This document shows, piece after piece, positions 59,546-64,000 of a stretch of 64,000 nt of DNA. The stretch lies in contig NZ_CP089746.1 in the NCBI RefSeq assembly GCF_029541745.1, positions 2,666,001 through 2,730,000 on the forward strand, in the 5' to 3' direction. The position numbers and the translations under genes are program-made. The notes beneath the pieces were generated by a model. It was not told where the DNA came from, made no database searches, and was given only the letters and a program-made list of their open reading frames with translations. The DNA comes from Streptomyces sp. LX-29. GTDB lineage: Bacteria; Actinomycetota; Actinomycetes; Streptomycetales; Streptomycetaceae. Every line of letters starts with the position of its first letter. Position 1 is the stretch's first letter.

Positions 59546-59983
59546 ATGATCACCCTGCGGCCCGTCCTAGAGGTCTACCCCTGGACGGTTTCGCCCTCTG
59601 GCCGGTCTCCGCCCCCGAGCCGTACAGCTTCCCGCCGCTCCACGGCGCGCTCGGCCCCACCGAGGTCGGCACGGTGGTGATGGGCATCGCCGCCCGCAAC
59701 GACACCGACCCCGCCGCCGACGGCCACCCGGCACGCCCCGCCGACCCGCCGACCCGCCGACATACGGCGGGGCTGGGCCACAGCACCGCTCACCCTCGGC
59801 GAGTGCCAGGCCATCGTCCTGCGATACGGCGCCGACCTCCCCGACACCGAGGCCGGCGCCCTCCAGGAGGTGACAGACCGGGCTGTCCGCTACCGGCTCG
59901 AACGAGGCGTAGGGAAGATCGCGGCGCACCTCAAAGGGCGCGACGTGGACGGGTACGACGCGCTCACGGACGCTGCGGTCTGA
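59546..59983 (+). pseudogene. Small gene readable only with two compensating frameshifts
   Basis: Three adjoining segments show strong GC-rich third positions but in alternating frames. From the ATG at 59546 the frame reads MITLRPVLEVYP. From about 59578 the frame shifted by one reads LDGFALWPVSAPEPYSFPPL and on to about 59760. The first frame then resumes as ADIRRGWATAPLTLGECQAI and ends HLKGRDVDGYDALTDAAV at a TGA at 59981-59983. One base missing in a run of four C near 59578 and one extra base near 59755 would restore a 145-residue protein. I do not recognise the family. Sequencing error and true decay cannot be told apart here. Confidence 0.5.
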
Positions 59984-60010
59984 GCCACCCCGTCTTCCAG
60001 CACCAGGTAA

Positions 60011-60042
60011 CGACCCGCCCTCTTCGACGTGGGGGCGGGTCG
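60011..60042. terminator. 10-bp hairpin between convergent genes
   Basis: cgacccgccc (60011-60020) pairs with gggcgggtcg (60033-60042) around a 12-nt loop. It lies just past the GNAT stop (minus) and 28 bp past the frameshifted gene (plus). Confidence 0.65.
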
Positions 60043-60046
60043 CTTC

Positions 60047-60565
60047 TCACCCTCGAAGGTTCTTGAGCATGACTGCGTACAGCGGAGAGTCGGCGAACGG
60101 CCGCTGTTCGCCGACCTTGGCATACCCCCAGGACTCGTAGAGGGCCTGCACCTTCGGGTGTGTTACATCCACCAGCAGGGTTGCGAGGTGTTCGGTGCGC
60201 TCCTTCAGCAGAGCCTCGTGGAGGCGAACGGAGATGCCCCGCTTCCTCCACCGGGGGCGCACCATGACCTCGGACACTGCATAGGTGGACGTGTAGCCGT
60301 TGTTCGGTTGGTAGTCGGTGGAGCGCCACCATTCCCGACCTGGTGCGAGCGGAGCCCCGTACGCGAACCCGGTCGGCTCATCGCCGTCGTACGCAACGAC
60401 GCAGGAGAAGCCTTCCCGGGCCGTCCAGTGGTCCACGAACCAAGGGAACCGCTGGTTGAAGGGGGCATCCATGGCGTCGGCGTACGCGTCAGCATGCACA
60501 CCGATGAGCAAATCCCGGAAGCCCTCGGGTAGGTCTCCGTGCTGGAAGTGACGCAGGTCGGTCAT
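60047..60565 (-). CDS. GNAT-family N-acetyltransferase
   Basis: A 172-residue acetyl-CoA-dependent transferase. The core has SEVMVRPRWRKRGISVRLHE, in which PRWRKRGIS is the acetyl-CoA loop (R-x-x-G replaced by RKRG), and a final ALYESWGYAKVGEQRP strand-helix. The acceptor is unknown. The ATG at 60565 overlaps the stop of the XRE regulator by 4 bp (ATGA) and has ggag 6 nt upstream, so it is translationally coupled to the regulator. That pairing suggests a small regulatory or self-protection unit. Confidence 0.83.
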   Translation of the reverse strand: MTDLRHFQHGDLPEGFRDLLIGVHADAYADAMDAPFNQRFPWFVDHWTAREGFSCVVAYDGDEPTGFAYGAPLAPGREWWRSTDYQPNNGYTSTYAVSEVMVRPRWRKRGISVRLHEALLKERTEHLATLLVDVTHPKVQALYESWGYAKVGEQRPFADSPLYAVMLKNLRG

Positions 60566-61815
60566 GCTCGACTCCATTCGGCTCGCATGCGGTCAGTCCA
60601 CTCTCGCGCATAGGTGGTAGAGGGGGCTCTCACGATCAAATCTCGGTGGAAGTCCCCGATCAGCGTCCTCATACGGCCAGGGAGAGGCACTCCATCCATG
60701 ATCGTGAAAATGTCAGTAGCCGTCGCTGTGGCCTCTTCGGTGTCGCCCTGGCGGAGCTGCGCGAGAGCAAGTTGAGCAGTTGTCATGGCGCGGTTTCTGC
60801 GAAAAGCGACCGGAATCTTTGCCAGCGCACTGTGCGCCATCGCCTCGGCGTGGTCGGGCCGGCCGCCGTGGCTGTGGACAACTGCGGCAAGGTGGTCCAA
60901 CTCTGCGGGGCCGTAGAAGGCTGTCCAGCGGGGGCGCTCACGCCCAGTCGCCTTGACGAAAGCGTCTTGGGCTGCTCCGAGAGATCGCAGGGCGGCACGG
61001 TGGTCACCGAGGGCTGCGTACGAAAGCGCGACTCGGACCCGCCCCAAGGAGGAGAAGAAGGGATCTCTGCGCGCCGCCGGGGACGCTTGCGCTGCCTTCG
61101 CCGCGGCAAGAGCCTCGGGCCAGTTGCGACGCTGGTAGGCGAGCATCGACAGGTTGACCCAGACTCGCATTTCCGTTGGGCCATCCTGCGAAAGACCTGC
61201 GTAGGTCGTGGATTCGTGAAGGTACTGCTGGGCTTGATCGAGATTGCGCACGTCGATGCAAGACCAGGCCGCCATGGTGGTGTACTCGGCCACTAGTGCG
61301 AACAGCGCCCGCCGTACATGCTCGCTGGCGTTCTTCTTTTGCAGTTCGAGAACTTGAGACCGGCCGGCGATGGCGTCCTTCTCCAGCTTGGAGTGCCCGC
61401 CCATGCGGTCATCAGCCTCCACTAGAGCGTTCATCCCAGCAGCCGCCCTGGCCACGTCCGACATGCTCACGCTGCGACGCTGGGCCAAGAGGGGAACAGC
61501 CACGGCGGCGGTCGTGCCACCGGCCGTGGTAAGGAAGGTGCGACGCCGCACGGGGTCCTCCTGCGGTACTGCGGTGCGCGGTGCGGTGAACCCTAAGTCC
61601 TCGACAGGACAGCCGAACACCCGCTCCAGCGCGGCGCAGGTGCGGCCGATAGGACGACGCGACGTGCCGTTCACCAGGTTCCGGACCGTACGCGACGACA
61701 CGTCACCTGGTCTACCGGTGATCTCCGCGATGGCATCGTTCATCTGGCGCGCCAACTCATCCTGTTTAAGGCCCAGTTCTTCCATCCGGCGCTTGAGGAT
61801 GGCATTCACTCCCAT
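60562..61815 (-). CDS. XRE-type helix-turn-helix regulator with TPR-like C-terminal domain
   Basis: A 417-residue protein. The N-terminal HTH (~5-75) has LKRRMEELGLKQDELARQMN and SSRTVRNLVNGTSRRPIGRT. A short basic/hydrophobic linker (RRRTFLTTAGGTTAAVAVPL) looks like a twin-arginine signal but is internal and common in these regulators. The C-terminal ~280 residues are helical repeats of TPR type (MRVWVNLSMLAYQRRNWPEA; RVRVALSYAALGDHRAALRS), fitting peptide or protein sensing. The ATG at 61815 is the family-like start, MGVNAILKRR, though its ribosome site is weak. It is divergent from the ATPase operon at 62061. Confidence 0.8.
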   Translation of the reverse strand: MGVNAILKRRMEELGLKQDELARQMNDAIAEITGRPGDVSSRTVRNLVNGTSRRPIGRTCAALERVFGCPVEDLGFTAPRTAVPQEDPVRRRTFLTTAGGTTAAVAVPLLAQRRSVSMSDVARAAAGMNALVEADDRMGGHSKLEKDAIAGRSQVLELQKKNASEHVRRALFALVAEYTTMAAWSCIDVRNLDQAQQYLHESTTYAGLSQDGPTEMRVWVNLSMLAYQRRNWPEALAAAKAAQASPAARRDPFFSSLGRVRVALSYAALGDHRAALRSLGAAQDAFVKATGRERPRWTAFYGPAELDHLAAVVHSHGGRPDHAEAMAHSALAKIPVAFRRNRAMTTAQLALAQLRQGDTEEATATATDIFTIMDGVPLPGRMRTLIGDFHRDLIVRAPSTTYAREWTDRMRAEWSRA

Positions 61816-62003
61816 GGCACCGACGGTAGCCGCGTCGTCACCGTTCGAGCCAGGGTGAAGATATCGGGATCGCAAAGTCTTCCGGTTCGATGTCATCGAT
61901 TGAAGCGGACCTCTTCCTGTTCCCCTGCGGCCGCTGGTCGTTGACTCGATAGGGCCGTCGAGCGGACCAAGGGTCGCCCCTTCCCTCGGCGGCACGGAGG
62001 AGA

Positions 62004-62034
62004 GCCCGCCCCTGCGACCCCGTCAGGGGCGGGC
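62004..62034 (+). promoter_or_regulatory. Leader hairpin just upstream of the ATPase gene
   Basis: An 11-bp perfect stem (gcccgcccctg at 62004-62014, caggggcgggc at 62024-62034) with a 9-nt loop ends 11 nt before the ggaggg ribosome site at 62046-62051. It is strong enough to terminate transcription, so it may be an attenuator or a regulatory leader. Confidence 0.5.
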
Positions 62035-62060
62035 GTCCCACCCTCGGAGGGAAGAAACCC

Positions 62061-62483
62061 TTGACCACGACCAAGAGCAGACCCAATGCAATCGGCGCCC
62101 CCGGCTACAGCGAGACGCTTCCCTGCGAGGCCGAGTCCGTGGGCCGCGCCCGTCGGCTGGTCAGCGCCGCCCTGAACACCTGGGGGCTCGACCACCTCAT
62201 CGACTCCGGAACGCTGATCATCTCCGAGCTCGTCACCAACGCCACGCAGCACAGCGGGCGTGACGTGTTCCGCGTCGGCGTAAATCGGCCGACAGAGGGC
62301 CTTGTGCGCCTCGTCGTCAGCGACACGTCCCGCTCCAGGCCGAACCTGCGGCAGCCCGGCAACGATGAGGAAACCGGCCGCGGGCTGCTCATCGTCGAAG
62401 CCCTCGCCAACCGCTGGAACGTGGACTACCGCCGGTGGGGCAAGGTCGTGTGGGTCGAGCTGGATACCGAGGTGAATAGCTGA
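62061..62483 (+). CDS. Anti-sigma-like ATP-binding protein (HATPase_c)
   Basis: A 140-residue GHKL-type protein. The N-box is IISELVTNATQHSG and the G-box is DEETGRGLLIVEALANRW, followed by GKVVWVELD. Such small ATPases stand beside XRE regulators in many Streptomyces whiJ-like loci. The TTG at 62061 has ggaggg 9 nt upstream. Its stop shares a base with the next gene's ATG (TGATG), the first of several tight overlaps in this operon. Confidence 0.82.
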   Translation: MTTTKSRPNAIGAPGYSETLPCEAESVGRARRLVSAALNTWGLDHLIDSGTLIISELVTNATQHSGRDVFRVGVNRPTEGLVRLVVSDTSRSRPNLRQPGNDEETGRGLLIVEALANRWNVDYRRWGKVVWVELDTEVNS

Positions 62484-63040
62484 TGGGTAGGCACGCAAAG
62501 CCTCGGAGGTTCACGCTCGTCCACCGTGCTATCTCGTCCGGCAGTTCGGAGGACCGACGGGAGCCCGGGGAAGCCTGGGGGCACGAGTTACCAGAACAGG
62601 GCTACCTGGTCCAGGACGCCTTGGAGCGGACGGACACCGACACCCTGCGGCGCTGCCTGGAGGCCATGAGGCGGCAGCTCATGTCGGAGCAGACCGACGA
62701 GCCGGTTCGCATCACCCGAGAGATGGTCCAGCACACGGTGGACTACGTACTCAGTGGCCAGCTCGAAGAAGTCGAGGACACCGACCTCGGCGCCATCGTG
62801 CTCATGCTGCGGGGCTACCTCACCGTCCTGGCGGACGAGGCTGAGTCGCTGTTGGACACCGGGCGCGCTGTCGTTCGTGAGATGACCGGGCGCGCGAGGA
62901 GAGTCGCGGACGAGGAGGGCGTTCCGAGCCGCGCGACGGCTCGGCATGTGGCGCGGACGGCACGCGACCTGCTCCACCTCCTAGCTATTGAGGGCTGGTG
63001 GGCGGCGCGCGCGAAATCCAGGGAGTCGGCCCGTGCATAG
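62483..63040 (+). CDS. DUF6415-like hypothetical protein
   Basis: A 185-residue helical protein, basic at the N-terminus (MGRHAKPRRFTLVHR) and acidic in the middle. The segment GAIVLMLRGYLTVLADEAES recalls DUF6415, a family annotated around Streptomyces natural-product and regulator loci (typical LRGHIQLLIPEVE). The match is from memory and weak. No membrane segment or signal is seen. Its start overlaps the ATPase stop by one base and its stop overlaps the next small ORF by 8 bp. Confidence 0.6.
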   Translation: MGRHAKPRRFTLVHRAISSGSSEDRREPGEAWGHELPEQGYLVQDALERTDTDTLRRCLEAMRRQLMSEQTDEPVRITREMVQHTVDYVLSGQLEEVEDTDLGAIVLMLRGYLTVLADEAESLLDTGRAVVREMTGRARRVADEEGVPSRATARHVARTARDLLHLLAIEGWWAARAKSRESARA

Positions 63041-63164
63041 ACGACAGATTGCACGCCCGACCGTGGTTCCGTATGTCGCATCTTGGGACAGCGACCTCCC
63101 AGTCGTTGAACGTGAGTTGATCATGCAGTATCGCCCGCGGCTTCGACCGCTGGCGACGGCATGA
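63033..63164 (+). CDS. 43-residue small ORF, possibly a truncated accessory-protein N-terminus
   Basis: It begins with a GTG at 63033 inside the end of the upstream gene, has ggga 8 nt upstream, and reads MHRRQIARPTVVPYVASWDS followed by DLPVVERELIMQYRPRLRPL and ATA. The stop TGA at 63162 overlaps the next ATG by 4 bp. VVPYVASWDSD resembles the start of ~90-residue Streptomyces proteins (VPYIAxWSxE...) associated with XRE/DUF6415 loci, so this may be a shortened member. It is easy to miss because it is below usual length limits. Overlaps on both sides are the main evidence that it is translated. Confidence 0.55.
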   Translation: MHRRQIARPTVVPYVASWDSDLPVVERELIMQYRPRLRPLATA

Positions 63165-63496
63165 GACAGCCGCGATTGCGCTGGAGGCGGCGCAAGCAGC
63201 CTCTCTCGAACTACGAGCCCAACGTGCAGCGAATCCTTAACCCGCCCACCCGCACCTGGCCGAGTCGCATCCGTGGCGGATTCTGGGCGGCCGAGGAGTG
63301 GTGGTGCCGGCATGTCACTCATCGGGAGCTCTACCGTCGACTCGACGCCACGGGTCGCGCTTTTCGAGCCAACCTCCCACCGGAGTGGGACACGCCCGAA
63401 TATGCGGAACGCAGCCTTGAGCGCATCAGGAATGAACTAGCCGCCAAGCACGCCGCGCAGAAGGGAGGCGCCACCGATCCTCCACCACCCAACTAG
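63161..63496 (+). CDS. 111-residue basic hypothetical protein
   Basis: It starts MRQPRLRWRRRKQPLSNYEP, then has an aromatic stretch (RIRGGFWAAEEWWCRHVTHR) and a charged helical C-terminus ending TDPPPPN. It has no membrane segment. The ATG at 63161 overlaps the preceding stop (ATGA). I recognise no family. It closes the four-gene overlapping operon. It is less GC-rich than most of the window. Confidence 0.6.
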   Translation: MRQPRLRWRRRKQPLSNYEPNVQRILNPPTRTWPSRIRGGFWAAEEWWCRHVTHRELYRRLDATGRAFRANLPPEWDTPEYAERSLERIRNELAAKHAAQKGGATDPPPPN

Positions 63497-63789
63497 CGCT
63501 CTTTCTTAGGGATTCCGGCCACGCCTCCCCGTATCGGCCGGATTGAAATACCCGGCCCCATTTTCACTTTTCTCGAAAACAGGCCGGGTCATTCTCACGC
63601 CCTTTTTCGACCCGGAAATCTTGGCATATTCCATTTTGAATGACCATGAAATTCCCTCTTTTCGACCCGGGTTTGCGACTGTAGCTTCTTTCCCGGAAGT
63701 TCGTTCCGCCGATAAGGCCAGAGCTCGACTTCGGGCAAGGGTCGAAGCGGGACATCCGGCTTCCTGGGATTCGAGAAAGGTGTACGGGA
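63497..63789 (+). promoter_or_regulatory. AT-richer leader region with direct repeats upstream of the 58-residue peptide gene
   Basis: This 293-bp stretch is one of the least GC-rich in the window. The 12-bp sequence ttttcgacccgg occurs at 63604-63615 and 63659-63670. A gccggattgaaatacccggc element near 63536 can form a 6-bp hairpin and may end the upstream operon. Candidate promoter AT-rich blocks lie at 63617-63655. No convincing gene is present. Confidence 0.45.
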
Positions 63790-63966
63790 ATGAACCCGAC
63801 CCAGATCGACGAGGCCGAGACCGCGGCCATGCCCCGCACCGTCCTGACCGACCTCGTGGCGGCCGTCAAGGACGACTCGCCGGCCGTGGTCGCCGGTGTG
63901 AAGAAGTCCGTCGCCCGGTCCCAGCAGGACGCGAACAACTGCATGATGGGCGGCTGGACCTCCTGA
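63790..63966 (+). CDS. 58-residue peptide, candidate RiPP precursor
   Basis: The sequence starts MNPTQIDEAETAAMPRTVLT, continues DLVAAVKDDSPAVVAGVKKS and ends VARSQQDANNCMMGGWTS. Codon third positions are strongly GC-rich in this frame only, which supports translation. The ATG at 63790 has aagg about 9 nt upstream. The N-terminal ~45 residues are helical and acidic, like leader peptides; the last ~10 hold one Cys, one Trp, Gly-Gly, Thr and Ser. That shape fits a precursor of a ribosomally made, modified peptide, but the core matches no class I know. No modification enzyme is inside the window; the next 34 bp end it. A plain small regulatory protein is the alternative. Confidence 0.55.
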   Translation: MNPTQIDEAETAAMPRTVLTDLVAAVKDDSPAVVAGVKKSVARSQQDANNCMMGGWTS

Positions 63967-64000
63967 CCGACCGCTCTGAAGCGCTGATGCGCTGACCCAG

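Follow-up and report, generated by a model that had tools for sequence, protein, structure and literature searches.

Enzymes of the aKG-HExxH family are known to hydroxylate His, Asp, Phe, Gln or Pro residues of RiPP precursors (PMC13060819), and two of them, PosC and PflC, also carry out oxidative cleavage of the peptide backbone (PMC12636437). From PosC variants, the authors of that work inferred that small residues (Ala, Gly) lead to α-hydroxylation and cleavage and larger ones to β-hydroxylation (PMC12636437). Among pentapeptide-repeat proteins (PRPs), the protection that McbG, AlbG and QnrB1 give to gyrase is specific for microcin B17, albicidin and ciprofloxacin, and QnrB1 and AlbG need a protruding loop for it (PMC7897471). 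A PRP was also assigned as the self-resistance determinant in the cluster for speirobactin, a compound that acts on gyrase (PMC12406682).

In Streptomyces sp. LX-29, an oxygenase gene of this family and a PRP gene lie beside a short precursor gene. The window, that is, the whole stretch of 64,000 nt that was analyzed (contig positions 2666001-2730000), extends only 34 nt past the stop codon of the precursor gene, so the downstream genes were hidden from the first-pass annotation; they are numbered here on L002, a locus that extends past the window end and whose position 1 is window position 63001. The features are:

60562-61995, - strand: NsdA-family regulator, upstream (NF053720, 304 bits)
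62061-62483, + strand: small HATPase, anti-sigma-like (PF13581)
63622-63632, + strand: TGGCATATTCC element, common to five relatives at about -153 to -172
63775-63780, + strand: ribosome-binding site GAAAGG, 9 nt before the ATG of the precursor gene
63790-63966, + strand: precursor gene, supported by its ORF, codon GC and relatives beside the same enzyme
63790-63942, + strand: variable leader of 51 aa, with Asn nearly invariant at -3 (comparison of relatives)
63943-63957, + strand: invariant core MMGGW (20/20 relatives), then Thr-Ser and the stop codon
L002:1003-1039, + strand: hairpin between the precursor and enzyme genes, supported by covariation
L002:1071-1934, + strand: aKG-HExxH peptide hydroxylase, 287 aa (TIGR04267 match, ChlB-HExxH fold)
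L002:1940-2629, - strand: pentapeptide-repeat protein (PF13599), convergent to the enzyme gene

The precursor gene is a 58-aa ORF on the + strand (ATG at 63790, TGA at 63964-63966) whose translation is MNPTQIDEAETAAMPRTVLTDLVAAVKDDSPAVVAGVKKSVARSQQDANNCMMGGWTS. Its GC content at codon positions 1/2/3 (0.61/0.49/0.97) is typical of Streptomyces, and the DNA coding for the motif, ATGATGGGNGGNTGG, is present as a single copy in the 8.2-Mb single-contig genome. The first-pass annotation had proposed a genuine 58-codon gene with an acidic front, and this is borne out by the start, stop and sequence as described, the codon GC, the ribosome-binding site and the 19 relatives found elsewhere; the leader has a net charge of -2, which makes "acidic" a fair description. 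Its further reading, a leader-plus-core precursor of no named family, also stands as far as sequence can tell, with no match in Pfam and a lone, spurious match in NCBIfam (E = 0.03).

The enzyme gene starts 104 nt downstream of the precursor stop on the same strand. Its product matches the NCBIfam model TIGR04267, "aKG-HExxH-type peptide beta-hydroxylase," with 84.7 bits (cutoff 40) and has no match in Pfam. PDB searches with the sequence gave sub-threshold matches only, and the fold comparison was decisive: below E 0.001, the AlphaFold2 model (pLDDT 92.7; the Nocardia row was left out of the structure prediction input) drew five PDB matches in all, to SjiH and, as the best of them, to the HExxH domain of the alpha-ketoglutarate oxygenase ChlB (8s5f). 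The HExxH motif (HEGMH at residues 156-160) and a downstream RPL..FH block are conserved among the homologues, with the exception of the one in genome G094, where the motif reads RQAVH. Going by the published rules, we would put β-hydroxylation of N, M, W or T in the precursor at slightly better than even; α-hydroxylation of Gly with amidation or cleavage would be a rather unlikely second candidate, and any other chemistry appears improbable.

Searches for relatives covered Streptomyces, the class, Streptomycetaceae and plasmids, and the same tail with the same neighboring enzyme was found in 19 other genomes or replicons. The resulting 20 MMGGW precursors, every one adjoining an enzyme gene, are spread over Streptomyces (7), other Streptomycetaceae (12) and a Nocardia farcinica replicon (1). 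Precursor-search matches up to E = 1 were mostly chance matches inside long proteins, and only those adjoining an enzyme gene were kept; a contig scan with the precursor as query had Streptomyces mashuensis, the nearest named relative of the source genome among the genomes compared, as its sole match, and the enzyme is the better probe.

A motif-anchored comparison (n = 20) found MMGGW identical in all the precursors, with Thr directly after it in 18 and Asn at -3 from the core in 18; the leader, unlike the core, is poorly conserved. Genetic linkage of a precursor to a peptide-modifying enzyme, here in 20 pairs, and a distinct conservation of leader and core are both marks of a RiPP. The first-pass annotation had anticipated homologues with a conserved leader and a variable C-terminus and the reverse is seen, while neither of the findings that it had named as refuting a RiPP, even conservation over the full length and a known non-RiPP domain, turned up in the precursor. 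It had also regarded chemistries such as a Cys/Trp crosslink as conceivable because of the single Cys. The residue at -1 is Cys in 11 precursors, Ser in five, Ala in two, Gln in one and Val in one; since Cys is present in only 11/20 and replaced in the other 9, it is not a core feature, and a Cys crosslink as the core chemistry was rejected together with the conserved Cys that a lanthipeptide or Cys-thioether peptide would have. The annotation was right to argue against a classical multi-ring lanthipeptide, with no lanthipeptide enzyme nearby and no lanthipeptide synthetase or thioether-forming enzyme common to the loci compared.

Two staphylococcal plasmids carry arrangements that recall this one. 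In Staphylococcus warneri (L101:4800-4960), the region upstream of a gene for a distantly related HExxH enzyme (23% identity) has a frame reading ..SLCLMGGYTSHYF, which resembles CMMGGWTS; this frame differs from that of the likely start and may be a pseudogene or a chance occurrence. Plasmid pPH1-1 of Staphylococcus aureus (L102:4709-8065) has a further HExxH peptide locus, in which the gene for a 42-aa peptide without MMGGW precedes those for two HEXXH enzymes and for an MFS transporter.

The short gap between the precursor and enzyme genes holds a strong hairpin in 19/19 intact cassettes, with a core stem of 13-17 bp whose sequence differs in Nocardia. In the hairpin alignment (A6), 96% of the cells pair and 12/15 pairs have changed on both sides; none of 500 shuffles reaches the observed covariation, and pairing drops to 29-57% in slid registers. 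Known RNA families gave no match near the gathering score. An intrinsic terminator after the precursor gene was rejected because the hairpin has no T-run and a terminator scan found none, and for the same reason the hairpin is read as an attenuator or as an RNA processing or stability element. Upstream, an element of the form TGGCATA[TG]TCC stands about 153-172 nt before the precursor start, also in G035, G091, G358 and G785, with a GTAG-containing stretch some 50 nt beyond it; it is a possible promoter or operator.

The PRP gene converges on the enzyme gene with 5 bp between the stops. Both its PF13599 match (80 bits) and the fold of its model (pLDDT 85.8) indicate a quadrilateral β-helix; the closest structure is EfsQnr (TM 0.81/0.89), and the best PDB matches of its profile include EfsQnr, AlbG, QnrB1 and MfpA, with IcmE/DotG and designed solenoids among them. 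Three points weigh against a topoisomerase target for the peptide: the PRP model has regular coils and no large loop, by reading of the predicted secondary structure; the protein is only mildly acidic (net -4); and PRPs have wider roles, several functions being known. A protruding loop is not known to be required by all gyrase-binding PRPs. The resemblance to EfsQnr suggests, by analogy, that the peptide acts on a type II topoisomerase, and poisoning of such an enzyme is our leading guess because of these matches and because related PRPs protect gyrase or provide self-resistance (PMC7897471; PMC12406682). We regard it as the likeliest single activity of the mature peptide, at odds somewhat short of even.

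The distribution of the PRP gene bears more directly on its role in the cassette. It adjoins the enzyme gene in 19/19 intact cassettes, Nocardia included, so that no intact precursor-enzyme pair without a PRP was found among the 19. Distances among the enzymes correlate with those among the PRPs (Mantel r 0.73, 0/9999 permutations), with shared host ancestry contributing, and in the genus sample a close PRP was found in 7/8 enzyme-carrying genomes vs 3/288 without the enzyme. In three genomes the enzyme has no PRP next to it and PRP matches elsewhere are weaker ones, and in each of the three the core or the enzyme is broken: G094, in which the altered HExxH motif is accompanied by the precursor tail STMGCGTE, G768, in which the leader is retained and MMGGW lost, and G781, in which the enzyme is cut short. 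Seven genomes or plasmids have a PRP without a working cassette (G044, G150, G796, G116, G248, an S. anulatus plasmid and G373); the enzyme is truncated at its start and no precursor was found in G044, enzyme remnants lie next to the PRP in G150 and G796, and in G373 the PRP and an enzyme remnant are on different contigs. Five PRPs from orphan or decayed loci that were tested have dN/dS values of 0.10-0.29. A PRP thus stands beside the enzyme in 19/19 intact pairs vs 3/7 in which the enzyme or the core is damaged. The difference (Fisher p = 0.002) comes from a small comparison made post hoc, with classes assigned after the fact and a broken set of n = 7. Presence in every intact cassette, persistence after decay and absence only beside a broken core or enzyme make up the asymmetry expected of an immunity gene, and to judge from these genomes the PRP behaves like that of the producer. 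As a separate observation, in the G094 locus (L100:5781-9957, a plasmid of Streptomyces sp. NBC_00690) the RQAVH enzyme homologue is followed downstream by genes for a radical SAM protein, a dTMP kinase and a nuclease, and the locus looks like a decayed or repurposed relative.

We therefore read the locus, with a probability of about 0.68, as a three-gene cassette for a minimal oxidized RiPP with self-protection by the PRP, and we infer its leader function, modification, immunity and target as follows. The leader would guide the C-terminal tail of the precursor, N-x-x-MMGGW-T, to the HExxH enzyme encoded next to it, and this iron/alpha-ketoglutarate enzyme would oxidize residues in or beside MMGGW. 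The most likely reaction is β-hydroxylation; the alternative is α-hydroxylation of a Gly, accompanied by cleavage of the backbone and amidation. The hairpin probably holds precursor expression above enzyme expression, host proteins encoded elsewhere would carry out trimming and export, and the convergent PRP would protect DNA gyrase or topoisomerase IV of the producer, by analogy with McbG and AlbG. A point against this reading is that the loci compared share no conserved exporter/transporter or protease gene.

The rival that survives best, itself unlikely, is a toxin-antitoxin-like module in which the oxidized peptide acts inside the producer with the PRP as antidote, for island or plasmid maintenance or phage defence, and nothing is secreted. 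It would account for the absence of an exporter from every cassette and for relatives that also lie on large plasmids. It would also suit the strain-variable island in which the cassette is found: genome G058, which is of the same species, lacks everything from window 59762 to L002:3210 and has about 3 kb in its place. This slot (window 59762-64000 plus L002:1001-3210) is flanked by a SpoIIE/PP2C-like gene and ychF, and in G058 (L097) it holds ORFs that resemble, by eye, two toxin-antitoxin pairs, one YefM/YoeB-like and one Phd/RelE-like. Against such a module, a dedicated oxidizing enzyme and a leader are RiPP features, toxin-antitoxin peptides are not known to be modified in such a way, and the purifying selection on orphan PRPs without a peptide gene fits exposure from outside better. 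The outer neighbors of the cassette differ between species; a phage origin and tRNA-borne integration were both rejected, with no viral contig matching the enzyme and no tRNA nearby.

Somewhat less probable still is an oxidized RiPP that is no antibiotic but a signal, a metal-binding peptide or a developmental regulator, with the PRP as its binding partner or receptor. An invariant core is what a signal with one receptor would have, and PRPs with non-gyrase roles exist, such as HetL, whose structure is among the matches of the PRP model. The upstream XRE-type regulators and ATPases are also of a kind common in Streptomyces development. These are the only recurrent neighbors besides precursor, enzyme and PRP, lying upstream of many relatives (small HATPase-like genes in 8/20 loci compared), and they are common in Streptomyces anyway; no other shared biosynthetic gene (MNIO, asparagine-synthetase-like or radical-SAM) is conserved among the loci. 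A receptor or partner should vanish with its peptide, whereas the PRP repeatedly outlives both peptide and enzyme, and its best structural and sequence matches are gyrase-acting proteins. In the window, NsdA-family regulator, HATPase and DUF6415 genes occupy 60562-63040 upstream of the precursor, and the NsdA-family protein is a possible regulator of the cassette.

That the ORF is an ordinary small protein or a chance frame next to an unrelated HExxH gene is very improbable, since the lack of a matching precursor family model is outweighed by the 20 adjacencies, by a tail that stays the same although the genomic surroundings vary widely, and by the covariation of the hairpin that separates the two genes.

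The literature searched, which did not reach subscription papers, contains no mention of MMGGW and no combination of a pentapeptide repeat, HExxH and a precursor peptide, and within that limit we judge the precursor family to be previously undescribed. Stand-alone aKG-HExxH enzymes, most of which have no known substrates, thereby gain a defined precursor family, and its invariant core of five residues allows a direct test of where the chemistry takes place. A concrete guess at the target, gyrase or topoisomerase IV, which is clinically validated, comes from the PRP, and decayed cassettes are a plausible natural route to orphan Qnr-like protection genes. The cassette product may thus be a new kind of antibacterial peptide; more tentatively, and with the odds against it, the cassettes could encode minimal RiPP topoisomerase poisons of a new class, short peptides that one oxygenase makes from MMGGW and that come with a PRP for immunity; spread through actinomycetes as sets of three genes, the cassettes would leave orphan Qnr-like resistance genes behind.

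Compared with known systems, the cassette is close to the pfl/pos RiPPs of Pseudomonas (PflC/PosC, PMC12636437), in which a stand-alone aKG-HEXXH enzyme likewise works on the C-terminal part of a precursor that has a leader and a conserved C-terminal motif, and no protease gene lies nearby. It differs in its core, which is MMGGW here and a Gln run plus ARMD there, and those clusters add MNIO-nitroreductase, GNAT and transporter genes, with no PRP described. The pes (nitrilobacillin) cluster (PesO; PMC13060819) and the rSAM-fused ChlB enzymes belong to the same HExxH family, ChlB (8s5f) having the fold predicted here; unlike in those systems, no modifying enzyme other than the HExxH one is shared by the loci here, and the precursor is unrelated. 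The PRP has about 20% identity to EfsQnr, AlbG, QnrB1 and MfpA and, unlike them, shows no large loop and a protective role that is putative, whereas the quadrilateral β-helix is common to all and these proteins are its best profile and structure matches. Microcin B17 carries azole modifications and, besides McbG, has an export system of its own, while here a single oxygenase, no exporter and a putative gyrase target are seen; what the two share is a RiPP locus that carries a pentapeptide-repeat immunity protein, putative in the present case.
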